The position numbers were made by a program, and so were the translations under genes. The notes under the pieces were generated by a model. The model was not told the DNA's origin. It did no database searches and was given only the letters and a program-made list of their open reading frames with translations. From assembly GCA_017506865.1 (NCBI GenBank), contig JAFCMP010000516.1, positions 248,001 to 312,000 on the forward strand: a stretch of 64,000 bases of DNA, given 5' to 3'. This DNA comes from Tribonema minus. Lineage: Eukaryota > Sar > Xanthophyceae > Tribonematales > Tribonemataceae. Shown one piece after another: positions 29,849-50,528 of the stretch; within the stretch, counting starts at the first letter, position 1, and each line of letters starts with the position of its first letter.

Positions 29849-32800
29849 TCAGGCCATTGCTTCCATGATGCTTGCAACATCAAATCGGAACACGCCGAAG
29901 CACCCGCCATCTGGCGGCGGCGGTGCAGCGGCTGGAGCCTCTTTTTTGCTCCCATCCTTGCGCACACGCTGCTGCTGCTGCTGCTGTGACATTGGCGGCT
30001 GCTGCTGCTGCAGCTGCTGCGCCGGCCGCCTCTGCAGCAGCTGCTGTTGCTGCTGCTGCTGCTGCGCGGGTGCACTGACCCCTGGCCCAGGGACAGCAGC
30101 CTTGCCTGGCTTCTCCCCGCGTTTCGGAGGCCCGGAGGGAGTGCCGACCGCAGGTGCGCCAGTGGAAGCACGCCGCGCTTTCCCTGCTGCTGGTTGCTGC
30201 GGCTGCTGCGGCTGCAACTTTGCCTGCTGCTGTTGCTGCTGCTGTTTGGCGTGCTGCTGCTGCGGCGGCTGCGCAGGCAGCGGCTGCTGCCGCTGCTGCG
30301 CCGAAGCGGGCTGTCCGCGTGACTGCGCCTGCGCCGCTGCTGCCGCAGCTGCTGATTTGTCGGCAGCGGGCTTGCCCCCTGAGCGCTGCTGCCTGCCGCT
30401 CCGCTGCTGATCTCTCTCGAGCCAGCGCGCCTGCGCACAGCACACGAGAAGGTGGCAGGTGATCAACAGTGCGCCTAGGCGTATCAATACGGAGTTTATG
30501 GCTCAAATCCAGTGAGGCTTTAGTTCCCCAACTCTGAACATGGCGCTCACGCCTGCTCCACTCATTGGCGTCAATGGTGCAGTGGTTAAAGACGCCTGGC
30601 GGCAGAGCCAGATCTTTCGCGTGTATGCATGTTGCAGCGCTCCACGCTTTGCATCTTTGTCGCTCCCAGCGTTTGGCAACCGCAACAGCTTTGCTCCCAG
30701 CGGCAGGTGCTTCAGTTGCTCGTGCGCCCAGTGCTCTCTTTTGCTGAAGCAATTAATGGTTTTACTAACTACGTGTGGAGGGGCTTCTTTTTCCACCTTG
30801 CCAGCAGCCTGATGTTGCCCTTAGTCACAACTGGGCGGTGCGGCTGGCTAAACCTAATTCTGACCCTAACCCTGGCAAACCCTGCCGCTAAGGGGACCGA
30901 AGGGCAGCACCAACGGGGCTGCTGCACCACAACAACAAGGTGCGCGTATCAAAACCTCACAGCCTCCTTGTCTAGAGCGCTGCGGCCGCTGATGCAAATG
31001 TGCGATAATGCTCCATTCATGCGTACTCCACCACACACCCCTGCAAGTGGGTCACACCGACAGCCTCGAGCTGCGTGTGCCTTCCGGTACATCCAGAGTC
31101 ATAACATCTTCACCCAAAACCTAAAGTGTAATTTGAACACACAGCCCGTGACCTGAAATCTCCGCTCCAGTCGCACCGGAACGCGCCGTAAGACTGGGCT
31201 TCACAGTGGCAACAACAAGATGACACGACAAAACTTCACAATTGCCTAACTTCAACCGCAGCCCTAAAACTTACTACAAGCGAACCTCAGCCCCCTATCT
31301 GCCCTCTGCAAACCTCACGTGGTGTAAAACCCGACTTTGCAGCTGCATCAACTGCGCATGAAACTTCAACATTTTCAACGCACTTCAACTCTCACCAGGC
31401 GCTTGAGGAGCGGCTCGACGCCGTACGTGTGCTTCGGCAGGTCATCAATGGGGAAAAGCTCTATCGCGCCGATCTCCTTGCGCACGCGCGGTGCAAACTT
31501 CAACTTGCACTTCAACTCACCAGGCACAGAGGAACGGCTGGATGCCTCGCATGAGATGCAAACTTCAACTTGCACTTCAACTCACCAGGCGCTTGAGGAA
31601 TGGCTCGACGGCGTACGTGTGCTTGGGCAGGTCGTCGATGGGGAACCACTCTATCGCGCTGATCTCCTTCCGCACGCGCGGCACAAACTTCAACTTGAAC
31701 TTCAACTCACCCAGCGCTTGAGGAACCGCTCACCGCCGCACGCGTGGCGCAAACTTCAACTTGCACTTTTAACTCACCAGGCGCTTGAGGAATGGCTCCA
31801 CGCCGTATGTGTGCTTGGGCAGGTCGTCGATGGGGAACCACTCAATCGCGCTGATCTCCTTGCGCACGCGCGGCGCAAAGTTGAAGTCCTCCGGCACGTC
31901 CGGCACGATGAACATGGTGCTCTGCTGGCCGTTGGAGAAGAGCGTGATAAAGGCGCGCGGGTCGATGAGCGCTGACGCGTCGAAGCCCGTCTCCTCCAGA
32001 ACCTGCGGAGCAAAGAGGACATGAGCGTATGGTGACTTGCACTTCATTATACTTCTATGGTAACTGCGTTGACGTGTCGAACCCGGTCTCCTCCCAGAAC
32101 CTGCGGAGCAAAGCAGATGTAAGTTTGTGTAGAGAGTAACTTGTACTTCATGATATGGTGATTGTGCCAATTTGTCACTCCAAAACTAAAGCAAACCCCG
32201 GTCTCCGCAAGAACCTGCGGCGCACAGCAAAATCTTCCATGACTTTCTGTCCTTGTATATTGCTGCATCATGATCGTATATAAACTGCGCTGTTGTGTCG
32301 AAACCCGTCTCTTCCGGAACCTGCGGCGCACAGCGGGGTGTGAGTTTGTAAATGTTGGGGAAAAAAAAAACCTGAACCTCATAGACTATAACTGCTGATT
32401 TGTCACTCGCGAGCTGAAGCAACGCCCGGTGTCCTCCAAAACCTGCGGCGCAAAGCGGACATGAACTTAGAATGTAGGAAAGTCACTTGAACTAATGAGC
32501 GCTGAAACCCGTCTCCTCCAGCACCTGCGGCGCAAACGACACACAAGCTTTTGCAGAACGCGACTTGTGCTTCATGACAACAATAGGCGCTAAACCATAG
32601 CGTAGATGCTGCGAAGCAGGCGATGAAAAAAAAAAAATCAGCACAAGACAAGAGACAAGCATCGCAGAGCATCACCTCTCTCGCAGCGGCGACGGCGGGC
32701 GGCTGCGCCTCGTTGATCTTGCCGCGCGGCAGCGTGCGCGAGTTGCCCTTCCAACTGCGCACAATCGTGCGCATCGACTATCAAGAACAACACAAGGCTG

Positions 32801-34828: not shown

Positions 34829-37800
34829 ATGGTGGATGCAGACGCCAACAGTGAGCCACATTACCCTAGCGACGTCCCTTTCTCTCTCGATCGCTATGAT
34901 CTGGCCCAAGTTGCCACCACGTCTCACAGAGGCACTCTGGCGCTGCTACCCAGCAAGAAGGGCAAGCAGAAGTTTGTTGTGGGCGATGACGCTGGAGACG
35001 TGAGGGTGTTTGAGATGAAGAGGGGGGAGCTTCAGGAAGCTGCTGTCTATTCGGAGCTAGGAGGTCCCATCACCGCTCTGGCCGTGGATGCCTTGGACAG
35101 AATCTTTGCAACCCAAGGCAGCCGCATAGCGGGGCTGACCAGGAAGGGCAAGGAGTTCTTCAAGATGGGGTCGACTCTCACGGAGACCATGCACCACCTG
35201 GCTGTTGATGGCACGTTCATTTTCACGGGGTGCGAGTTCATCTTCAACCTCTACGACGATGGCAAAGTGAGGAACAGAGTTTAACTGATCCACGACTCAC
35301 GCGAGATCTATGTAATACTTGGAGCCAACAGTGCATGCATTGAGATTGAGGTTGCTACTGTATCCTGTGCGTTGAGTCATATGAGCATGTCGTTAGATGT
35401 TCAGATTTGCATTTTTGATGTGGGGCCCCACAGTTGCATTTGATGGCGGCACTGTCGCTTTCGTGCCAGCTGCTAAGCTTGCTGTTGATTGTTCCTCCTT
35501 GCACAAGATAACACTGCAGTCTGCACACACTGCCCCAACCTAGTGCAAACTTCCAGATGTTGATTTAATAAAATGTTGTAATCTCTGAAATAAAAAAAGT
35601 AGCGCGTGTGTGAAAGCGTGCGCGGTTGCCAAAGTCGCCATGGTTTCGTTTCCATATCAGTGCAAAGCGAAGAAGGACGAAGACCTTTATTTGGTCATGA
35701 TTATGATATGGTCGCTTGATACTTGTGCGACCATTATATCTTGTTCGTAGGCATTCCGAGGCGCCAGGGCTTTCTGTACATCTGTGGGTGTGCGATCAGT
35801 GCTCAGCTGAGTGACGTGTTTAGATACTGTGTTTACTTCCACAGGCAGCGACTGGTGTTACTGGCAATTGTCATTTCACTGTGTCGACGGTGTTACTTGT
35901 GAGCGTGCCACCTCTGCGACGGGCGTGCTGAGCGTTGACACCAGGCAGTGACGCTGAAAACTGTCACTTGTGTGAGAGCAGATTCGCGTCTCCTCATTCG
36001 CATCAACCGCAACTTTGACATCACATCTAGTACCGTAACGGCAGCCGTGCTGGCCACCAGACGCGCTGCCACTCTCACCTCCACCTGCCTTGCAGTTCAC
36101 CCCAGCTTCACCCTAGGCGCACGTTAACGAAGCTGTCTCTGACAAATGACCATCTGTAGCCACCTCTGGCTCACCCCTGCGAGAAGCACCTCCTGGCACT
36201 GCATTTGTCGTCTGTTGCCAATGCTGTCTGCAGCAGAATATCTATGAAATGCGCTGCAAATTCAACTTCAATCGTTAAGGTACACTTCAACTGCGCCCCG
36301 CACAGCGCAGGAGGCTGCTCAACGGAATGTGCTGCAAACTCAACTCCCATCATTATGGCACACTTCCAGTGCGCTCGCACCTCGCAAGAGACTGCTCAAT
36401 GGAATGTGCTGCAAACTCAACTTCAATTACTGCGGCACATTTCAACTGTGCCCGCACCACGCAGAAGACTGCTCAAGGAATTGCGCTGCACACTCAACTT
36501 CAACCAGTACGGTACACTCCAACTACGCCCCACACTGCACAGGAGACTGCTCCATGAACTGCACTGCAAACTCAACTTCAGCAGTCATTACGGTAAACTT
36601 CAACTTCAACCCACGCTGCGTACAGGACGTCGCCTTCCACATGTGCCACGACCGCATCGGCGCGCTGATCGTGGTGCGCGGCATGGCGGGCGACGGCGGC
36701 GCCGTGGCAGTGCTCGGCTGCGCGAATCACAGCGTGATAGTGGTGAGGGGGGGGGACGTGGTCGCTCGCGCATCGGTCTCCGGGCCAGGTGCGCAATTTT
36801 TTGCAATCGCACGGGGAAAATATGTCTGCACGCAGGAGGAATGTTTGCGTCGGTCAGCTGTGTCGCCTGGTGACTTTTTGTGTACTGACGGTGAGGCGGC
36901 ACCGTGGCAGTGCTCGGCTGCGCGAACCACAGCGTGATAGTGGTGAGGGGAGGGGACGTGGTGGCGCGCGCGTCTGTCTCGGGGCCAGGTGCGCAATCGC
37001 TGCAAGTGGGAGGAGAAATGCCTGCACGCAGGCAGAACACTTGCGTTGGTTGGCTGCGCAATTAGCTGATGGATGGTGAGGCGGGGCGAGTGTGCGGGGG
37101 GGGGGGGGGGGGCGAAGAGGGGAGGGGAGAAGGGGGGAGGGCAATGCTGGGGTGTATGTATATGTGTACAACATGCATGTGCTTCACACTGCTGCTACCT
37201 TTGGAAGGTTTTGCTTTCACTGTCCGCATTAGAGGTGTTGTGGCGGAGGCCACGACTCGACAGCGCAGCCAGCGCAACCCCCTCGATGTCCAGTTTACAG
37301 GCGTCTCATTGCCAGCTGGAAGTTCAAAGCGCAGCCGGCGCAGCGTCCTCTGTGTGAAGTTTACAGGTGCCTTATTGACCGTTGGGATTGCAAGTGTTCT
37401 CGGGTGCATGTCGAGGTGCGCGAGTGTGTGCAGTCGTCCTCGGATGGGTTAGGGTTAGGGTTAGGGTTAGGGTTAGCCTAACCCTAACCCTATGACTTCG
37501 TGCGTTGTTCAAAAGGCGCAGACTGTCGGCCTGGGCCACAGGATCCGGTGCAGCGCACCAAACACATGTGCACATGTAAGTATGGGCTGGCTCACAGCAC
37601 TGCACAGCACGCCAACTATTTACTTATAAGCAGCACATGGAAAATAATGTCGCTGTCCATACATTATGCCCGTAACCGCTTAGGTAGGCAAGGGGGTTGG
37701 TGACAAACCCATCTTTAGGCATAAGCACAAACGCGCCTTAAAATGCGCGTGTTGAACGCTGACGCCGATGAGGCACGTCACCCATGCGCGCGTTGAACGC

Positions 37801-40800
37801 TGACACCGATGAGACACGGCACCGATGCACGCCTTGAAGTGCGCGCGTTGAGCGCTGATGCCGATGAGGCACGTCACCCATGTGCGCCTTGAAGTGCGCG
37901 CGTTGTGCGCTGATGCCAATGAGGCACGTCACTGACGCACCTTGAAGTGCGCGCGTTGAGCGCTGACGCCGATGAGGCTGGTCAACCATGTGCAGCTGCG
38001 TCAGCCATGTCATGCAGGTAGGATGTGCAGCTGACGCCAACATTCGTTGGACAAGCAGGGAGCGCGCAAGCCGCCTTGAGTTCAAGTAGAAGTAGATGGC
38101 TTGCAAATACTCGCGTGCATCAAACACACGCGTCGTGCATTTTCCCACGTGCCCCCCCCCCCCAACCCTCCAACCCCCACAACCCCTTGCTCCCATACCT
38201 ACATACCCGCCGCAGTCACAGCGCTGCTCCATGCCGGCAGCGGCCACATATACTACGGCACCGAGGACGGCACGGTGGGCCTGCTTGACTATGCCAACAC
38301 CATTACCGGCGGCGGCAGCGGCAGCGAAAGCATGATCACGTTGCAGGAGATGTGGCTACTAAGTGGCGGCAGCGCTGGGGTGACAGCGCTCGACGCCTGC
38401 GATCTGACGGGAAACGGGCGCGCGGAGCTCGTTGTGGGTCGCGATGACGGCGCCATTCAGGTATGTATACCCTAGCGGTTGAAGTCGCACACATGCAGTA
38501 CTGTCACTGATACATGTTGGAGCTCGTTGTGGGCCGCGATGACGGCGCCATTCAGGTACGTATACCCTACATACCGAAGTGGTTGCAGTGGCATACATAC
38601 GGTGTTTTCACTGGTGCATCTTCAAGCTCGACATGGGCAGCGATGACGGCGCCATTCAGGTATGTATGCCCTACATACCGTAGCAATTGAAGCCGCATAC
38701 ATACAGTACTGTCAATAATATATCGTGAAGCTGGTCATGGGTTACGCTGACGGCCCCATTCAGGCGCACACAAAAAGTACAGCAGATGTATATGCCTACA
38801 AACAGTAATGATGTACACGTATATTCATATAGTAATGATGTAAACGTACGTGCATACAGGTATGTCATTGGGCAGCCAATCAAGGTGATTCGAACATACG
38901 TAGTGCCGAGAATTTGTTTCAGCTGGCACTTGGTAGGTGCTCACAAAGAGCAACAACGACAACAATCGAATTTCAGAAAGCAAAAAGACGCCACGAGGTA
39001 CACAGTGATGAGTTACACAGAAGCTATGAAGTTTGCCAGTGTACAGCTGCAACCGGTGTTCAGCTTGCACTAGGCTAACCCTTTCTGAAAAAACTTGTTA
39101 TAGCACAGTGCTGCATAATCCCTTGGAGCATTCGTGGTGGTGCCATACTCCTATGATCGTCACTGCGCTGGCACAGCGGCAAAACACGGTGTCTCGCGTA
39201 CACACTTCAAGTTCACGCCCATCTGGCGCCATCTCAGCTTGCCCATCTCATCTTGCGGCATTCAACGCCCACAGGTGTTCGGCTTCCCTGCCGCTGCCGA
39301 CGGCGGCAGCGGCGGCAGCAGCGGCGGCGGCACCTTTGCTGCGGGCGGCAGCTTTGCGCAGGGGGCAGAGCGTCTGCTGTTTGAGGCAGCGCTCGGCGAG
39401 AGCGTGCGCGCGCTGCAGTGCGGCGTGGTGAGCGCCGCCGGCTACAAGGAGGTGGTGGTGCTCGGGCTGTCGGGCGCGGTGCGTCACAACCTCAAGTACT
39501 TGAAGTAGATACATTCATGATGGCCGGCGCTTGTGCGGAGCGATATTAAGCCCCACGGTATACATGTGTTGACGGACAGTTGTTGCAGTGGGGGATCGTG
39601 AGCGCTGCCGCCTACAAGGAGGTGGTGGTGCTCGGGCTGTCGGGCACGGTGCGTCATAACCTCAAGTACTTGAAGTCAGGGCAGTTGTGAGTTGAAGTTA
39701 TGGCTGCGCAGGGCGCCGCGCCTGCTTCTGCGTGTTAGCATGGGGTAAAGCAGTGGTGCTGTGATTTGGCTCATGAACGACCTGTGTGAGGTGTCGTCTA
39801 GTTTGCGGTGCACTCACGTTCTTGGCATTTCATGAGTTCCGTAGGACTGTTCAGAAGCAGTAATATCTGCTTAGAACGCAACAAGGCCCAGTTATGTTGA
39901 TGTCAAGCTTGTTACCAGAACCCACGTCCTGCAGAGTATACCTTGTGATTAAGTGTCTCAAAACTCTAGCCTACCCCAAACCCTGTGATCACTTCAGTCG
40001 ATGTACTTCTCCTGAGCAAGACTCACTGGGTGCCACGTTGGGCAAGGCATTGTATGCAATCAAAGCTGGGTGCCACGTTGGGCAAGGCATTGTATGCAAT
40101 CAAAGCTCCTTTGAGTCTCCAAGTCTCCTGGGAATCACCGTGCACAAGAGTCCTCTGTGATAGAAGCTGACAAGCAATGTGGCTTCTGCATTTGGTCCTA
40201 CAGGGTGAATGTGAGCAGGGCAGAGGTGTGATGTGGCAGGGTTAGGTTGGCGACGCATCAGAGTTAGGGCCAGGGTCAGCGTTACTCTTCAAGGGGTGCC
40301 AAACACCCCCCTTTGCCAACGCATGCGACATGTACGGCAGGGACTCTGATAGGGTTAGGGTCAGTCTCTCATCACCCAACCCTAGCTGCGTCCGTGGTCT
40401 ACTGCTGCTCAGTCCCCCATTCATTTGCATGCCGTTCCGGCCGTTGCTAACTTACCCTTACCCTAACTTACCCTAACCCTAAGTTACCCTAACCCTAAGC
40501 AGATCCTTCGCGAATCGTGAGGAATTGTTCATAAATATCAACATCGCTCTTTACCAATGCCCGCCTCGTGCGTGAAACAGAAAAAAAGAGTCCGCATGTT
40601 GTTCAATCAACTCTGGCGATATCTGTGCCCTACTAGCAGCCACAGCTGATGCCCCGAATCCCTGCTTGCAATGCCAACCGTTGCTCGAGAGCAGGTAATC
40701 GGAGCCGCTGGGGCTGTGGCGGTGACTCTCCCCTCAGGTCTTGAACTACGTAATGCATATGTAGGGCTTGTCGCTGACCACATCACGTGCAATTCGTGCG

Positions 40801-43800
40801 GGAGCAGGTGGTCGGCTACACGACGGAGCCGCTGGGGAGGGTGGATGCAGGGGACGAGGGGGGGCGTACAGTGGGCGTCGTGCAGACAGAGAATAGGGTT
40901 CGGCAGTTGCAAAAAGAGGTTCAGGTATGTTGAAATTGAAGTTGCACTTCAACACGATGTTATGCTGTAGGATGATGTGGGATGCGTTGTTGGCATCGTG
41001 CAGACCGAAAACCGGGTTCGGCAGTTACAGAAAGAAGTTCAGGTGTGTGCGAGTTGAAGTTCTGCTCCACATCACTGCAATGTCATGCACAAGCACAACT
41101 TTAGTCGCTTATGGTCGGCTATATGACGGAGCCACTGGGGAGGGTTGACGCAGGAGACAAGGGCGGGCGCACAGTTGGCGTCATGCAGACAGAAAACAGG
41201 GTCCGGCAGTTACAAAAGGAGGTCCAGGTGTGTTGAAGTTGAACTTCTAGTTCAACTTACGTTTGCAGTATGTAACGCTATAGGATGAGGCAGAAGTGCG
41301 CAGTTGACATTGTGTGGACCCAGAACAGGGTTCGGCAGGTACATGAAGAGGTTCAGGCGTGTGGGAGTTGAAGTGGTGCTTCACCATTACACACTAATGT
41401 GTATGTATGTATGTAGAGTTTAAGTGCTCCTGAGCACTGAGATGAGTGAAAGCTGCCACGCATAATGCGATCAGTTCCTATGGCTGCGCAGATGGTGCAG
41501 TCAAGACGAGACAAGATACTTCGGCACAGCCAGAAGGATGTTGAGGTGATGTTGGTATGCCGGAGCAGAAACACGGACATGCTTTCAGAACCAGGAATAC
41601 ACCAGAGCTGCTAATTGCATCCTGTGAGGTCGCAAAACGCCTTTAGTTCATAACGTACTTCAAACGCCGGTACACATACATGTGCTAGCTGTGCAGTTTT
41701 AAAATGCCCAATGTCCATGTCGCTATCGAGTCATGCGACTGCGCAGCGGACACTGAGTGCCGTTGTTGAAGTGGCCAGCACGACACTTGAACATAAGATG
41801 AATTGAATCAGAAGATGAACTGAATCAAAATGCACCTGAACAATATAACTGCAGTTATTAAAGTCCATGGCAAACTTGGCCTTCCTAATTAAGGACTCTG
41901 CTTTGACGCTATTTCATTCGCGCACATCCCCCCCCCCCCCCCCTCCCTCCCCGTCTCAGGAGCTGCAGCGCAAGGTCGCGGCGGAGAGGGAAAAGGCACT
42001 GAGCGCTGCCAAGCTGAGCGCTGCCAAGGGGGGCGAGGGGGGGGGTCCCGCACTCATGCCGCACGTGCAGCCGTTCCAGGCCCTCGCCACCTGCGCGCTC
42101 GACGCGGACGCCGCCGCCTACAGAATGAACGTGGAGATACCCGTGCCGATAGACGTGGTGCTGTTACAGGTTCGTGCGAGTGATTGAATAGCTACGTAGA
42201 TGCAGCCACCCGCAAAATAAACGTGGAGATAGACATGATGCTGTTGCAGGTTCATGTGCGTGAGTGAATGTATATGTGGACGCAACTACCTACAGAATAA
42301 ACGTGGAGATACCCGTGCCAATAGACGTGGTGCTGTTACAGGTTTGTGTGTGATTGCATAAATGTGATTGAATATAAATGTAGACGCAGTCGCCTACAGA
42401 ATAAACGTGGAGATAGAGATACCCGTGCTGATAGACATGGTGCTGTTGCAGGTGCGTGTGTGCGATCAAATATGCGGTGCGTGAGTGATAGATGTGGTGC
42501 TGCTGCATCTTGAACATATGAATTGGCGCAGCCGCCTACAGAATAAACGTGGAGATGCCCGTCCCGGTAGACGTGGTGCTGTTGCAGGTTCGTGTGTTTG
42601 AACAAATTGCGGGAACTTGAAGTGTAGATATGCGCTTGCGGTAGGGCTGACGTTGTGAATGCATCAACGTACGTGCATCCAGCGGCTTCAGTGGGCAAGC
42701 AGTGCTCTTCACATGAGAAGCCGCAGCGGACATGCCGGTGCAGAGATGACAAACTTCAAGTGGAAGTGCAGCTCTCACACACTGCAGGATGTGTTTTGCA
42801 TATTCTGCGCTCAATGCTCATAGACGCAGTGCGCGCATGGCCGGCGTGGGTCAAAAAGCGATGTATGTATACTGTACTGCTGCGAAGTTGGAAGAACAAG
42901 TGGCATGGACGCCATGCAAGGTGGTCGTCTCTCTTCCCGCCTGCAAGCGCGCGACCTACTTTGTGCATGTCGCTAACAATAACGTGCATTGCCGCATCAT
43001 GGCCTGCTACTGCGCGTACAGAGCTCCGCATGGGTTAGGGTTAGGGTTAGGGTTAGGATTAGGGTTAGGGTTTAGGGTTAGGGGTAGGGTTAGCGCTAGG
43101 GTTAGGTGCTATGTCAGATGTCGGCTACTGATGTCATGGCTTGCTCCATCAAATGTCCGCCGCGTGTGTGCACAGAGGTGCTTCCACCTCTGCACGGGGT
43201 TGGCAATAATGTGGCTTCGCACTGCGACTTTTTCATAGTGCTGACAATGGTGTGGCTTGCCATACACACGCAATGTCTGCGTGCTGTTGATGATAGAACG
43301 GCGTGCCGAGCAGTGCATGTTGGCAGAGCTGCGTCCACTTCTGCACAGTGCTGATGAAGGCGTGCCTTGTTCCATCAAAGTGCGGCTCCCTTCACACACA
43401 CACAGCCTTCGTGCACATATAGCCGCCACGCACATATTGCATTGTGCCGCTGATGGCATGGCTCGACCATACACATGATGATGTGTCGCCTGTGTGCGCA
43501 GAGCTCAATTCACCTGGACTTTCTGGACGTCAGCGACGAGTCACAGGCGAGCGCCGTCTGCACCGTGTGCGCGCCCGCCGCCGGCAACGCGGCCGCGCTC
43601 ATGGCGGTCTACAGGTGTCAGGTACATACGTATGTTCGTATATTGTTGTAGTCTCACTTGAATCGCGGGGAAACCCAGATGATTCACATTGAGAGGGTAT
43701 GTACTGTTCACCAGTTGCGGTGTGCGCGCCCGCCGCCGGCAGCGCGGCCGCGCTCATGGCGGTCTGCAGGTGTCAGGTGTGTAATGTTGTATTTCGTCTC

Positions 43801-46800
43801 ACTCAGGACGCGATGAAGCCCAGATGACGAACATCAAGCAGGTATTTGCTGTTTACCTGTTACGAACCGTTGCTGTTCATCCTGTTACGAACAGTTACGG
43901 TATGCGCGCCGGTCGCTGGCAGCGCGCCCACGCTCATGGCGGCGTACTGCCGTCAGGTATGTAAGTACGTACTTGTGATCTTGTATACTTCTACATAGCA
44001 GCCCCAAGGTGGGCTCGGATTGAGAGGCCATGATAAATAAACTCTAGCTGGGCGAGCCTTTAGGGTTAGGGTTAGGGTTAGGGTTAGGGTTAGCCCTGTT
44101 TTTGCAGGTTTGAACACTACTGGACTGTCGGGGCGCAGAGACGGCGGCTCCGCGTTTGGGCCGCACCCCTCACAGCCGATGTCGTCATCTGTTGAACGAA
44201 AGCATATGTATTTGCACAGAAGGAGTGCGCATGTACTGTGTGTTCCGTCTTGCGTAGGACCAATGATGAACATCAAGCAGGCGTGTACGTCTCATTACTT
44301 CTAGGCATGTACTGAGGGCTAGAGTCAGGAATAGAAGTAGGGTCTAGAGTTAAGGTTATCGCTGGGGCTGGAGGTAGAGTTTTACGGGTTTTTTTCATTT
44401 TCGACTGAAAGTGGATGCGAAGATTGGAGTCATGGTGCCGTACACCACCAGCTGAACTAAGGTTAGGGCTGCATTCAGGATTAGGATCATGTAAACATCA
44501 ACTTACAGAAGTTGCTGGCTGCACATCGCCAGCACCCCATGGCGGGCAAATGCTGTGACCGCAACATGAGCACTGATGTCAACAATGAGGCGTCGACAAA
44601 AAGGTGTTGGCAGTTTTGCCTTGACGGTTGAACTCAATGCGTCAGGCCCCCGGGCCCCCCCTCTTGCAGGAGGACAAGTGGCGGCAGCGCTCAATACCCC
44701 TTGATCGACGAGAACGTACGCACAGCCCTAACCCTAACCCTAGGCTTGCACAGGCCCGCGCGGCACGCAAAACGCCATTCGCGCTCTTCCGGACGCTATT
44801 GAGGGCGGGGCGGCACACTAATTCCAACCCTCCCCCCGCCCTCCCTCCCCCCCCCTTCTTCTTTCAGGAGGGCACGCGGCGGCTGATGATTTTGGCGGGC
44901 TCGCAGCCTATGTGTAGGCATGGCATAGGTGTACTTCAACTTGAAGTTTCTATGATGATCAGAGTCACTGCATCCGACGCCTTGCTGCTGCCCCCCCCCC
45001 GCCTCTTTCAGGAGGGCACGCGGCGGCTGATGGTGAGGGCGCGCACGAATTCTAACCCAACAATACCCCCCGCCCCCCCCCCATATCTCTCAGGAGGGCA
45101 CGCGGCGGCTGATGATTAGGGCGCGCACGCAGCCTATGTGATGGCATGGACGTGTGGCGGCTCTGGTGTACTTCACCTTGAAGTTGGTCTGATGCTCATG
45201 TGCATCGGCGCCTTCGCTGCTGTCCCCCCCCCCCCCCCCCCCCGCCCCCCCGCCCCTTTCAGGAGGGCACGCGGCGGCTGATGATCAGGGTGCGCACAAC
45301 AGAGGGCGACAGCGGTGACGTGAGCCTTACGGTGGTGGCACGGCCAGAGGGGGGAGGGGGGGGGGGGGGGGGGGAGGCTCAGGGGGCCATATCCCGCAAG
45401 AACGCGCAGGTCGTTAAGTTCAAGATCCGGCCGCTGAGCCTGCATCACAGGGTGCACGCGGAGAGGGGGCAAGAAGAGGTAGGTATGGGTACCGCATGTT
45501 ATTCAAGTATTGAAGTATACATGCATCTACACCACATTCAGTATGCAAGTCGTGTAGCCTGCTGAGATGTATACGCTCATGCCTACACCACTGAAAAGCA
45601 CTTGATATACTGTGGTAGTACTGTAACCTGCTGAGATGCACCTCCACATGTATGCAAACATGCCTACACCGCTGAGAAGCACCGCTTTCACTGTGAAAGT
45701 ACTAGACTATAGCCTGCTGTAAAAACAACGCAGTCATCAGTCATCCGGGCTTTCTCGCACTCTGAGCGAGAATTAACGAAAAGTACATTATGGTACATTC
45801 ATGGCCTCAACTACCATCACAGTAGAGAGCACCATATTTTGAAATACTTTTCCATCATGTGGGCCCTGCTCACCAACTTCCCTGGGTCGCGCAAAAGTGA
45901 CCTTCAAAAAGCACAATATCACCCATTATAGCGGACTACCATACATTTGCAACATCGCTTCACATTGGCCCTGCGCACTCATTTCCCTGCGCTGCACAGA
46001 AGTGGCCAGAGCCAGGCGAAGAAGCACCGGGCCCCCCCATGAACGAGCTGCGGCTGACCGGGGGGTTTACCCTGGGGGTCGTGCACGACTGGGTGGCGCA
46101 GTGCCTTCCGGGGGTACCCCCTGAGGCGCAGTCGGACACGATGAACTTGAAGTTCAGAAACGCCTTCACGGGCAGCGTGCTGACGTGCCGCTACCGCAAG
46201 GGGGAGGCCGTGGCGCGGAGGTGAGTGGCCAGTTGAAGTTGCCAGTTGAAGTTGAAGTTGAATTGCACGTGCACGGAGCTTAGCACGTGCGTTGAGCGCT
46301 GGCACATGATGTATGAAGCGGCGCTCAGACTGCAGCGCACAACAAGCCCTGCTGGCTTCTGTATCTGTTTTGAAGGCCATCATGCTAATGGTTGTGTACT
46401 TTTTCAAGTTGCGCACTGCGCAAAATGAAGCAGCACTCAGTCTGCAGCGCAGAGTGCTGCCAGTTGCCGTAGCCGCTGTTGTGTGTGACATGGACTGATT
46501 GTGCACTTACTTGTGTACTCGGCATGCACTAGGTGCGGGCGGTACCACTGACCTCACCCAACTAGCGGTCTCTCATCACTGCTTCTCTCATCTGGCACTG
46601 CTTCTGGAGGGACATGTACACTCTCCGTTCGCAAACGCATTTCTTAAGCGCTGTGAAGGGGCATGAGAGTCCAGGTTAGGGAGTCCTAATAGGGACGTCA
46701 GATCCTCATTCGATGGCCTCGGTGTGCCAGACCCCCCATCTGGCAGCTGTTACTCATGACACCTTCCAGTCGCTTCCCCGCCAGCGAACTGTAACTGACT

Positions 46801-49800
46801 TTGGTGATTGCGCTGCATGATTGGTACTGCGTCATTAATGTTCTTGTTGTTGGAAACGAATCAACAGATCGTAGAGCTCCAAGTGACATTATTATTTTTA
46901 TCACGTCAGTCATCATTGCTACTGTATGACTGGTACTGCGTCTGCAGTGACACCCTGCAGTCGCTTCCCCGCCAACTAAATGCAACTGACTTTAGTGATT
47001 ACTCTGCACGATTGGTACTGCGTCATTATTGTTATCATCATCATTACGTCTCGTTTATCGCTATTGTATGATTGGTATCCTGCCTGCAGCGACAGCGCCA
47101 GCGCGCTAGCATGATTGGTACTGCTTCATTACTGTTATTATTATTACATCATTGATTGTTGTTTGTATTGCATTATTGGTAATGTGTCTGCAGCGACAGC
47201 GCCAGCGCGCTGGCCATTCTCCGCGAGGCGTTCGAGACTGGCGCCATACAGCGGCGCATTCACCTGTCGCACAACTATCAGGTGGGTGCAGGAAATGAAA
47301 GGAATCATTACAAAGTTGCAGCATCATGCGATGTAACTGCAACGCATATGAGATGACCTGCTTGTACTGCAAGAAAGGCTTGTGTTTGAGGCGGGCGCCA
47401 TACAGCGTTGTGTTCACCTGTCGCATAACTACCAGGTGGGTGCAGGGAATGAAAGAATTGTGTTCAAACTGCAGCATCATGCAATGTAACTGCAATGCAT
47501 ATGAGATGACCGTCTTGTACTGCAAGAAAGGCTTGTGTTTGAGGCGGGCGCCATACAGCGTCGTGTTCACCTGGTGCATAGCTACCAGGTGGGCGCAGCG
47601 AAGGAGAAACTTCTGTTGGAGCTGCAGTATCATGCAATCCATTTGCAAGGCATCTGAGATGACCCGCTTCTACATGCAACCTGTAAGAAACGCTTCTGTG
47701 TGAGACGGCCGCCGTCCAGCGGCGCAGCCACTTCAAGTTGTGACACCCCTAACCCTAAATCTAACCCCAACCCTGACCTAACCCTAACACTAACCCAATC
47801 TTTACCAATCAGGCTTGTTTGCAGACAGGGGACAGTCAACGCGATTGAGACGCCTTGCGGTGTACAAGAGACAACCAGCGTTGTACCCACAGAGCATCGT
47901 ACCGGCAGCATGGTTTGTTGTAAATGGCCATCAGGTCCGAACGCCGCACTGCTCATCAATAACGCAATCACCTGTCTCACAGCCATTGGGTCGGTGCTAC
48001 TGATGGCGGTGCTCCCGCAGTTGCCAGCCTTGATTGCACACCGTTTTTTAGGAACAAAATTATGTTCACGTCCAATATGATTTGCAGTTTGGACCTCCCA
48101 TCCAACAACCGTAACCTGTGGTTGCAAGAGACATGGCACAGGAGGTGGCAAGCGTGACCTGCACAGACCCGCACAGTACAAAGGCTTACTTTTGTGTCTA
48201 GACTTTCCAATTGACATGTCGTGATGACATAAGTTGCAACTAGGTACATGGGGCTGTCTTGTAGGGCTCGGAAGTAAGGGGCAAGGGTTAGGGTTTCAGT
48301 AAGCAGCCACAAAGTGCACACTATTATTGTACTGTAATGTCCAGATGCCTGTACATGTGAAGGGCGCAGCATTTAGGGGTAGTCTTCTGGCGTCACCCAG
48401 CTCAAGCATACACGCACGGCTGTGTGCTACATTGATTCAAAAGTGCATCGCCTTGTGGGACCGCACTTGATGTTTTCCTCGCACAGGCATCATGATGGCG
48501 CTTCCGCGCTTGACATTGCAAGATGCACGCGACATGTAATCCTCACTAGTTCTCGATGAGGCCAGGTGGCTGATGTCAAGCCTACTATGAGAGTGGCGAC
48601 AAAGTGTCTCGGTGACAAAGTGTCTCGGTGACAAAGTGTCTCAATGGCGATTGACAATCTTCTGAACGACATCGCCGTATGGCATCACCGCATGTACTCT
48701 GAGCTTGCTACTTCAACACTGCCTACTAACTTGAAGTTTTTTCTGCTGCTCCCGCATGCAGCCATGCCGCGCCAGCGTGCCGCGCATGCTAGACCTGCTG
48801 CGACCGAAGCTTGAAGCGCTGCTGGCCCTCTCGCGGCAGCACGCGCTGATCAATGCCATTCGCGAGCTGGCGCAGGCGGAAGGGGGGGGCGGCGGGGGGG
48901 GCTCCCCCCCCTGGCTGTCCCCCGAGTATGCCAACATTCTCGCCAATGCTACCACGATAGAGAAGGTGAGGGTTGGCACTTGGGTTGGGGTGAGCACGAA
49001 GTAGGGCTAGGGCTTGCGTGCGATCAATGCTATCCGCGAGTTGGCACAGGCGGAAGGGGGCGGCGGGGGGCACCCCCCCCCTGGCTGTCCCCCGAGTACG
49101 CCGGCATCCTTGCCAACGCCACCATGAAAAAGAAGGCGAGGGCTAGGGTTGCGGTGAGCACTCAGTAGGGCTAGGGCTTGCGTGCGATCAATGCCATCTG
49201 AGAGCAGGCGGAAGGGGGCGGCGCGGGGGGGGCGCCCGCCCCCTTGCTGTCCCCCGAGTGTGCCAACATTCTCGCCAACGCTATCACGCTATCACGATGG
49301 AGAAGGTCAGGGCTGGCACTAGGGTTGGGGTGAGCACTAAGTAGGGCTAGGGCTTGCGTGCGCTCGATGCCATCTGAGAGCTGGCGCAGGAAGGGGGGGG
49401 CGGCGCCCCCCCCCCCCCCCCTTGGCTATCTCCCGAGTATGCCAACATTCTTGCCAGTGCTACCACAATAGAGAAGGTGAGGGCTGGCACCGTGGTCAGT
49501 GTCTTTTTGTTAGGGTTAGGGTTACGGTCAGCGTGAGGGTTCAACACAGCATTTTGACCCTAAGGTTTTGTGAAATCGTCCCCAGACAGAGAAATGAGCA
49601 ATTAATGTCAGCCAGCAGGCGCCGCGAATGTTGCTGTAGCGTGAGGCAGTTCCGGTGGCGGTCAAGTTCAGCGTGAGGGTGGCACTTGCAGTTCAATCCC
49701 CCTCCCGGACACTAAGCAGAGCGGGCGGTGACAGTGCCTAACCCTAACCCTAACCCTAACCCTGACAGTGCCGTGATCGCAGTAAGGTGAGGCAGTGTCA

Positions 49801-50528
49801 GGTGCGCTGTACTCTGAAGCGTGATGGATTGTGAGGCGTCATGAAGCGACATCGCCGCAAACGCGCTCGCTTGCGCGAAAGAGATGGCGCGCTGGTGCAG
49901 CCGACAGCTGCGCGACGCTGCTGCTGCGCATCCAGGCATGTCAGCGCGCGTATGATGACAGCCGCCACGCAAATTTGCACCTGCACAAGGAACGGCTGCC
50001 GTTGTACAGGTGTTCAGTACGCCTGGACGCACACTGCGCAGGAGACGCCATTGCAATCTTGAGCACTGCGTGTGTGGGCGGCACGGCAGTGGACCACTGT
50101 ATGTATGTATATAGAAGTATATTACCTCGAAGTGTTGTACTTCTAGATTTCTAGATATTAGGTGTGGAAATATGTAATACGTCGTTACAAGATCCGAGCT
50201 TCAGGACCACATGGTCTTCATTCGCGTATGTACTACCCTGTGTGCTGCACACTGCACCGCTTGAACAAGCTACCCCCACCCCTGCATGTCTTACCAGTCC
50301 GGCACTGCAGCTGACTGGTTCACAAACAACACCTTTCTCTGTGTCCCTGAGCAGGAGTTCAAGGCGCGACCACGAGCGTTGGAATATGTAGGCGGCATCA
50401 TTACGGATCTCTTTGTGGACTGGCACAAGCTGCAGGGCCACGACGTCAAGCACAGGATCCCGGATGTGGAAGCAGCAGTGCTCAGCGGTGACCTCGGCGC
50501 CGCCGCCGGTCTTTTCGCGGAGGCGTGA
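34829..50528 (+). CDS. BBS7: BBSome subunit BBS7
   Basis: The twelve exons are 34829-35266, 36626-36788, 38216-38460, 39275-39478, 40808-40924, 41960-42169, 43502-43621, 45263-45478, 46000-46220, 47194-47281, 48762-48965 and 50355-50528. They join in frame to 799 residues (human BBS7 has 715). Exons 1-5 form the N-terminal beta-propeller (YDLAQVATTSHRGTLALLP, ELVVGRDDGAIQVFGFP, VVGYTTEP). Exons 5-6 form a coiled coil (VRQLQKEVQ, ELQRKVAAEREK). Exons 7-9 form the GAE-like domain (AVYRCQ, FKIRPLSLHHRVH, LTGGFTLGVVHDWV). Exons 10-12 form the platform and alpha-helical end (LRPKLEALLALSRQHAL, LSPEYANIL, EYVGGIITDLFVDW), all in human order. BBS7 is part of the octameric coat that moves membrane proteins in cilia, so the organism has cilia. 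Gly-rich inserts (exons 4, 8 and 11) explain the extra length. Intron phases are 0 except after exon 2 (1) and exon 9 (2). Confidence 0.94.
36238..36625 (+). repeat. Five-copy 77-nt array ending in the exon 2 acceptor
   Basis: Units starting near 36246, 36324, 36402, 36478 and 36554 share TGCTGCAAACTCAACTTCAA and an end resembling CCCGCACCACGCAG. The last unit supplies the real acceptor of BBS7 exon 2 (CGTACAG|GAC). The others end in CAG- or AAG-type acceptor-like words. Confidence 0.88.
36893..36988 (+). repeat. Echo of BBS7 exon 2 tail
   Basis: The copy of the last 29 codons plus donor lies 200 nt downstream of the original (36701-36788). Apart from the first codon (Ala to Thr), all seven differences are synonymous. 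The donor and next bases (GTGCGCAAT) are identical. Confidence 0.95.
37446..37491. repeat. Head-to-head telomere-like repeat
   Basis: About five TTAGGG units are followed directly by about two and a half CCCTAA units, an inverted arrangement like a telomere-telomere junction. It lies in BBS7 intron 2. Confidence 0.95.
37739..37990. repeat. Minisatellite in BBS7 intron 2
   Basis: Five imperfect units share GCGCGTTGA(A/G)CGCTGA and GCCGATGAGGCACGTCAC, with spacing of about 45-65 nt. The units contain a TTGAAGTGCGCG word. No relation to a neighbouring exon was found. Confidence 0.85.
38514..38766 (+). repeat. Echo ladder of BBS7 exon 3 tail
   Basis: Three copies of the last ~40 nt of exon 3 and its donor lie at 38516-38554, 38620-38658 and 38727-38764, about 100 nt apart. 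Similarity decays with distance: the first encodes ELVVGRDDGAIQ unchanged, the third is diverged and has GCGCAC at the donor. Confidence 0.9.
39588..39665 (+). repeat. Echo of BBS7 exon 4 tail
   Basis: The copy carries its own acceptor-like TGTTGCAG and encodes VSAAAYKEVVVLGLSGT, then the same donor GTGCGTCA and the same CTCAAGTACTTGAAG palindrome as the original at 39478. Confidence 0.9.
40672..41375 (+). repeat. Array of BBS7 exon 5 copies
   Basis: A head fragment at about 40688-40720 precedes the exon at 40808-40924. Three further copies follow: 40971-41042 (24 codons, own acceptor TGCTGTAG), 41111-41227 (39 codons, acceptor TTTAG at 41104) and a decayed one ending near 41357. Copies two and three are open, in phase 0 and end in GTGTGT donors beside TTGAAGTT motifs. 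Confidence 0.93.
42185..42600 (+). repeat. Echo ladder of BBS7 exon 6 tail
   Basis: Four copies of the last ~57 nt of exon 6 plus donor (ends near 42249, 42341, 42452 and 42588) encode variants of YRMNVEIPVPIDVVLLQ. One lacks four codons and one has two extra, so length changes are in frame. Each is preceded by an acceptor-like CGCAG or GCAACTAC. Confidence 0.92.
43030..43105. repeat. Interstitial telomere-like tract
   Basis: About twelve TTAGGG-type units with some variants lie in BBS7 intron 6. Confidence 0.95.
43700..43960 (+). repeat. Echoes of BBS7 exon 7 tail
   Basis: Two copies of the last ~20 codons with donor lie at 43720-43778 and 43898-43956. The first encodes VCAPAAGSAAALMAVCRCQ (two replacements); the second is more diverged but open. 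Confidence 0.92.
44057..44096. repeat. Interstitial telomere-like tract
   Basis: Six TTAGGG units lie in BBS7 intron 7, between the exon 7 tail echoes and the exon 8 head echoes. A short CCCTAA tract follows at 44727-44742. Confidence 0.95.
44855..45135 (+). repeat. Echo array of BBS7 exon 8 head
   Basis: Three copies of the pyrimidine tract, acceptor and head (TTTCAG|GAGGGCACGCGGC, EGTRRLM codons) lie at about 44855-44905, 44992-45045 and 45070-45130, upstream of the real exon at 45263. An ACTTCAACTTGAAGTT palindrome accompanies the first (44934-44950), and a similar ACTTCACCTTGAAGTT lies at 45170-45185. Confidence 0.93.
46910..47760 (+). repeat. Echoes on both sides of BBS7 exon 10
   Basis: Head copies (CTGCAG|CGACAGCGCCAGCGCGC) lie at about 47083-47107 and, decayed, at 46940. 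Tail copies with donor lie at 47386-47433 and 47543-47588 and encode EAGAIQRxVHLxHxYQ, with a shorter remnant at 47704-47730. The spacer GATTGGTACTGCGTCATTA recurs upstream. Confidence 0.88.
49005..49560 (+). repeat. Echoes of BBS7 exon 11 tail with telomere-like tracts
   Basis: Three copies of the exon 11 second half (from AINAIRELAQAEGG to ANATTIEK) lie at about 49018-49136, 49180-49305 and 49355-49477, about 160 nt apart. GGGCTAGGGCTTGCGTGCG words join them, and a TTAGGG-type tract (49505-49535) follows. The G/C-run lengths vary between copies. Confidence 0.92.
49738..49766. repeat. Short CCCTAA telomere-like tract
   Basis: Four to five CCCTAA units lie in the last BBS7 intron, in opposite orientation to the tract at 49505. 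Confidence 0.9.

Follow-up and report, generated by a model that had tools for sequence, protein, structure and literature searches.

Analysis of the BBS7 gene in the window, by which we mean the whole 64-kb stretch of DNA studied here, suggests that a single copy of exon 5 (copy A) is the working exon and that the other copies, B, C and D, together with flanking relics, are probably by-products of repeated tandem duplication, with C being the one copy that may be, or may have been, usable. The exon 5 array exemplifies a wider tendency towards tandem duplication around donors, which BBS7 shares with other genes here; tandem duplications are widespread in this genome, and within BBS7 they cluster at donors.

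BBS7 gene model and the exon 5 array

To judge from its predicted product of 793 residues (794 codons including the stop), the gene is a real BBS7. Chain 7 of PDB 6vbu (bovine BBS7), the sole BBS7 chain found in PDB, matches this product with an E value of 2e-97 and is colinear with it across the propeller end and the coiled coil, and PF23743, PF23360, PF23361 and PF23349 all score above the Pfam cut-off, so that the propeller, GAE, platform and hairpin domains of a BBSome subunit are all present. The start of exon 10 is the least certain boundary of the model. Within exon 5, the GYTTEP stretch aligns to bovine BBS7, and the Pfam propeller match stops there (residue 356). Copy A alone is colinear with bovine BBS7 and satisfies the alignment without any further copy, which points to A as the working exon 5. 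Interstitial TTAGGG arrays lie within BBS7 introns at 37433-37488, 43025-43105 and 44050-44105.

The earlier note had described three open, in-phase copies of exon 5, and A, B and C are indeed open with phase 0 at both ends. The array itself is larger, including a fourth copy, D, which had been missed and whose length of 73 nt from its TAG makes it frameshifted, as well as a relic upstream (F) and a tentative relic downstream (E). Homology of C to A starts at 41111-41112, making 41111-41227 the counterpart of A. With 117 and 123 nt, respectively, and phase 0, A and C are homologous exons that nearly agree in length and share a frame, as in a mutually exclusive cluster; this does not hold for B (72 nt) or D (frameshifted).

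Comparison of the A+B and C+D blocks showed differences at 62 of 292 aligned sites. In a codon tree of the four copies, the topology joining A with C and B with D was better than the two other topologies by 4.8 lnL, placing D as the sister of B. Together, alignment and topology fit a 303-bp block duplication in which A+B gave rise to C+D, in what would have been a later, large step. Allelic or assembly duplication as the source of A and C appears ruled out by the 14 of 39 third positions that differ and by the decay of D. As for the short dispersed element upstream of A, 15 of the 17 matches listed are other genome places matching that part of the query; two of the seven aligned matches have the same orientation, and the other five were compared unreversed.

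Table 1. Features of BBS7 and its exon copies, in window positions (S, synonymous change; N, replacement change, in copy-versus-exon comparisons)
Feature	Position	Strand	Description	Basis
BBS7 gene	34829..50528	+	12 coding exons	gene model, PDB match, Pfam domains
BBS7 exons 1-4	34829-35266, 36626-36788, 38216-38460, 39275-39478	+		gene model
BBS7 exons 5-8	40808-40924, 41960-42169, 43502-43621, 45263-45478	+		gene model
BBS7 exons 9-12	46012-46220, 47200-47281, 48762-48965, 50355-50528	+		gene model
Exon 2 copy	36895..36988	+	3' part with donor, 7S:1N vs exon 2	
Exon 3 copies	38519..38763	+	exon end, three copies, donor of the third lost	
Exon 4 copy	39584..39648	+	exon end with donor, one copy	
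Relic F	40688..40713	+	acceptor and start of a further upstream copy, with deletion	34 aligned sites, 6 differences
Dispersed element	40708..40792	+	short, upstream of A, adjoins relic F	genome matches
Copy A	40808..40924	+	predicted working exon 5, 39 codons, phase 0-0, acceptor GAGCAG, donor GTATGT	bovine BBS7 alignment
Copy B	40971..41042	+	24-codon partial copy, open, TAG acceptor, GTGTGT donor	
Copy C	41105..41227	+	near-complete, open, TAG acceptor ending 41104, GTGTGT donor	
Block C+D	41111..41413	+	second unit of block duplication of 40808-41110 (A+B), 303 bp	
Copy D	41284..41356	+	decayed, frameshifted, GC donor, 7S:13N vs A	
Relic E (tentative)	~41485-41548	+	strongly decayed copy	~33% different from A with gaps; weak
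Exon 6 copies	42217..42587	+	exon end with donor, four copies	
Exon 7 copies	43717..43956	+	exon end with donor, two copies	
Exon 8 copies	44868..45132	+	acceptor and exon start, three copies upstream of the exon	
Exon 10 copies	47384..47588	+	exon end with donor, two copies	
Exon 11 copies	49022..49473	+	exon end, three copies, two with a stop	

Tandem duplications spanning donors

Self-comparison revealed local tandem copies at nine of the 12 BBS7 exons (2, 3, 4, 5, 6, 7, 8, 10 and 11), and the exon 5 array is not special within the gene. The copies cover 27.6% of BBS7 exon bases, or 20.0% when an identity of at least 80% and a distance within 3 kb are required. Repeats span eight of the 11 BBS7 donors, compared to 3.1 expected by shifting (0.27% of 2229 shifts reach eight), and two of the 11 acceptors, compared to 3.2 expected.

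Local repeats were also found across the genome, which comprises 158 Mb in 554 contigs. In 20 evenly spaced 10-kb samples from four contigs, a mean of ~11% of bases (range 0 to 49%) lay in local repeats, and in six 10-kb pieces of the window the share was 5.5 to 51%; shuffled sequence had zero local repeats by the same measure. Among 14 kinesin and six tubulin or FtsZ loci, spanning was scored for 12 kinesin introns, of which three had a spanned donor (two in locus L049 and one in locus L051, the latter a low-margin intron call) and one a spanned acceptor. The light-harvesting-protein family gave 92 matches in the genome, counted exon by exon. Of three such loci compared with the PDB, one had no hit at 1e-10, whereas the other two matched, after the multi-domain chains of entry 9vfj, chains with names such as ACPI, CAC and light-harvesting complex protein; the source is thus probably an alga whose antenna proteins belong to the red lineage.

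Two loci were noted beside this survey. At 100-480 of L049, the end of the kinesin P-loop exon and its donor are tandemly copied. A minus-strand gene at 31301-31980 of the window, which we take to be Dcp2-like, carries donor-spanning exon copies as in BBS7, some still open, and has a NUDIX-like exon with a weak Pfam match under the cut-off.

On the by-product reading, the segments that were repeatedly duplicated in tandem run from an exon end across the donor into the intron. A copy lying 3' of the real donor and lacking a proper acceptor would be spliced out with the intron at little cost and would then decay, and B and C would be open still because their frames are not yet lost. A copied acceptor upstream, in turn, would compete with the real acceptor and be harmful, potentially explaining why acceptors are spanned less often. 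If the copies are leftovers of this kind, gene prediction can call exons here that do not exist, and tandem duplication in BBS7 favours exon ends with donors.

Substitution pattern of the copies

The excess of synonymous changes had been the main argument for protein-level selection, on the premise that neutral decay gives mostly replacements. The count for C was confirmed, with 14S:4N between 41111-41227 and 40808-40924 over 39 codons and zero indels. For B, the reported 7S:0N holds over its last 15 codons, and all 24 codons give 12S:6N ungapped or 9S:3N gapped; this stretch was set aside as evidence of selection, having been picked after the fact. The premise proved too simple. A working exon contributes only synonymous changes and its copy contributes all, so that a neutral copy should show ~42% S (0.38 to 0.46 by copy). 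Consistent with this expectation, the 18 control copies (those of the 22 BBS7 comparisons outside exon 5 and exon 2) showed 58S:82N, with 58.4 S expected, and thus fit the neutral copy model.

C departs from this neutral pattern, B and the exon 2 copy depart weakly, and D fits it. For C, p was 0.0005-0.0025 at equal rates (kappa 2 to 7), 0.007-0.03 with the exon rate doubled and 0.08-0.16 with the exon rate fourfold. Fisher tests gave p = 0.0014 for C against the 18 controls and p = 0.0045 for C against D. When 155 ungapped and partly overlapping local pairs were ranked by how strongly their differences favour one codon position, A-C came second. The earlier note had called for dN/dS between copies; calculated by hand relative to the exon, it was 0.09 for C, 0.20 for B, 0.06 for the exon 2 copy and 0.66 for D, compared to 0.53 for 15 pooled copies (a set excluding the three exon 8 copies).

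Codon models of the four copies gave results that depended on the clock. When A and C were given the same time, and likewise B and D, omega_C was 0.12-0.19, and omega_C = 1 was rejected with p = 0.0003 (F3x4) or 0.002 (equal frequencies); the corresponding p for omega_B = 1 was 0.12 or 0.06, and D looked neutral (omega_D = 1, p = 0.69). Pairwise tests under the clock model gave p = 8e-5 for A-C, 0.015 for A-B and 0.09 for B-C. The model without a clock did not reject omega_C = 1 (p = 0.25) and made the branch of A ~15 times as long as that of C; p was 0.036 for omega_B = 1 and 0.06 for B and C being jointly neutral, or 0.017 with D and the inner branch fixed as neutral. The claim of protein-level selection thus survives in part: the S excess of C withstands a neutral model with controls, but neutrality is not rejected once the clock is released.

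Several of these observations argue against the by-product reading. C is unlike the controls in its 14S:4N, and its neutrality is rejected with the clock; its third-position GC (0.71) remains close to the value for A (0.74; BBS7 as a whole, 0.80), whereas B (0.54) and D (0.60) fall; the exon 2 copy is also replacement-poor; and phase 0 is retained in A, B and C alike. Gene conversion was rejected as an explanation for the few replacements in C, since A and C have diverged at synonymous sites (14 changes in 33.4 sites) no less than the intron beside them (0.22 per site). Calibration by introns serves as secondary evidence only, because several exon 6 and exon 7 copies have both S and N under intron divergence, making introns no safe clock.

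One explanation of the S-rich differences in C is chance in a dead copy, picked by eye from many, which would be a sub-case of the by-product reading and not exclusive of it. S-rich dead copies do exist, as shown by a kinesin copy in L049 that has a one-base deletion and a stop and is nevertheless 8S:3N (nine kinesin copies pooled, 18.5S:17.5N). Moreover, a bias towards one codon position reached p < 0.01 in seven of the 155 local pairs, and the 7:0 stretch of B was itself post hoc. Against chance stands a family-wise p of 0.0036 over the 22 BBS7 copies (binomial approximation at equal rates, with C taken as 14S:3N over 38 codons), and we regard this explanation as conceivable but somewhat unlikely.

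The exon 2 copy is a further candidate for constraint, with few replacements (7S:1N, p = 0.015; 1 N compared to 11 expected from intron divergence). The copy is partial, the intron adjoining it differs by ~27%, and its nearest AG is low-scoring. Tentatively, tandem duplications spanning donors might act as an exon nursery, seeding introns with in-frame copies of which a minority, such as C and the exon 2 copy, would be selected as alternative exons; we consider this unlikely, but if true it would mean that a unicellular alga has alternative exons in a gene for a ciliary protein. On any of these readings, BBS7 offers 22 natural exon copies for gauging the speed of copy decay.

Splice signals and possible use of copies B and C

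The earlier note had credited each copy with an acceptor, a donor and phase 0, such that any one could be used. Phase 0 and the GT donors of A, B and C stand, but each donor was duplicated along with its copy and is not independent evidence, and usable splice sites fail at the B and C acceptors. Among 29 introns (11 BBS7, seven tubulin or FtsZ and 11 kinesin, called with a margin of at least 5; a less certain kinesin intron, whose acceptor was AAG, was excluded), 27 acceptors were CAG, one was GAG and one was TAG, the type found in B and C. Scored with a 20-position matrix built from these 29 introns only, with percentiles among 817 intronic AGs, the A acceptor reached 5.1 (93rd percentile), the B acceptor -2.5 (36th percentile, with two of the 29 real sites lower), the C acceptor -5.4 (16th percentile, under all 29 real sites) and the D acceptor -1.2 (49th percentile). 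The C acceptor sits in sequence non-homologous to that of A. Five AGs were scored between 41043 and 41115, and 41105 alone gives C in phase without a stop, those at 41054 and 41060 being in phase but hitting a TAG at 41102 and those at 41043 and 41094 being out of phase.

The would-be introns are 46 nt for A-B, 62 nt for B-C and 180 nt for A-C, compared to a shortest length of 181 nt in the 29 introns. The first two are far under this minimum, making A-B or B-C joining unlikely, and by length A or C alone, or A joined with C, are possible. B lacks the GYTTEP stretch at the propeller end that aligns to bovine BBS7 and can therefore hardly replace A. C, if used, would add two residues before this stretch and change TTEP, which is common with bovine BBS7, to MTEP. 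Mutually exclusive or cassette use of the copies, as earlier suggested, thus finds no support in their splice signals; B and C are readable, but their poor signals suggest that they are probably leftovers and not spare exons.

C as a real second exon 5, used instead of A or joined to it across an intron of about the shortest length seen, and kept by protein-level selection, appears improbable. Its substitution counts, phase 0 and full exon length, its omega under the clock model and its place as the outlier among the 22 copies all speak for such use; PMC5740500, moreover, names steric interference at distances below 50 bp among the recognised causes of mutual exclusion. Nevertheless, the acceptor of C lies under all real ones and at the sole suitable AG, TTEP is altered, and neutrality is not rejected without a clock, nor with an exon rate four times the copy rate. 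If C were used, a protist would have an alternative exon for one of its BBSome subunits, within a gene whose copies have decayed to different degrees.

More doubtful still is earlier use of C that was lost recently, whereby usage would have moved between copies, both would bear past constraint, and A alone would be spliced now. This scenario accounts for low replacement together with a poor present acceptor, but the part of C that is homologous to A starts only at exon base 1-2, which suggests that C at no time had the acceptor of A. Inclusion of A, B and C together with a lengthened coiled coil, as the earlier note had also envisaged, is very improbable even though all three lengths are divisible by three and free of stops, given the short A-B and B-C introns, the alignment of bovine BBS7 to one copy only and the likely insertion by C of a propeller end and Gly-rich stretch into a helix. 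Returning to the by-product reading, C is a statistical outlier and the only exon 5 copy that merits an RNA test, yet its acceptor argues against present use.

Relation to known exon duplications

The array resembles tandem exon duplication with mutually exclusive splicing, known from systems such as Dscam and SNAP25 exon 5. As outlined in PMC5740500 and PMC9013439, those systems likewise have tandem, homologous, same-phase copies in a neighbouring intron and spacing that would block joint splicing of neighbours. In contrast, B and C lack credible acceptors, and most of their BBS7 sister copies are partial and decaying. PMC9013439 gives exon duplication shares of ~2% over all human exons and 0.08% over all fly exons; these figures come from another method and whole gene sets, and the 20% in BBS7 concerns a single gene met through its copies.

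A second related system is intron gain through tandem genomic duplication (PMC4974935), in which gene structure is likewise altered by short tandem duplications. The BBS7 duplications differ in spanning existing donors, their copies landing in existing introns with no new intron shown. Our literature searches found no report of widespread donor-spanning exon copies, which does not prove absence. Unannotated intronic exon copies found by WebScipio- or exonerate-type searches (PMC5740500 and PMC9013439) are also exon homologs in adjacent introns; the BBS7 copies differ from these in being mostly exon ends with a donor, at eight of the 11 donors.
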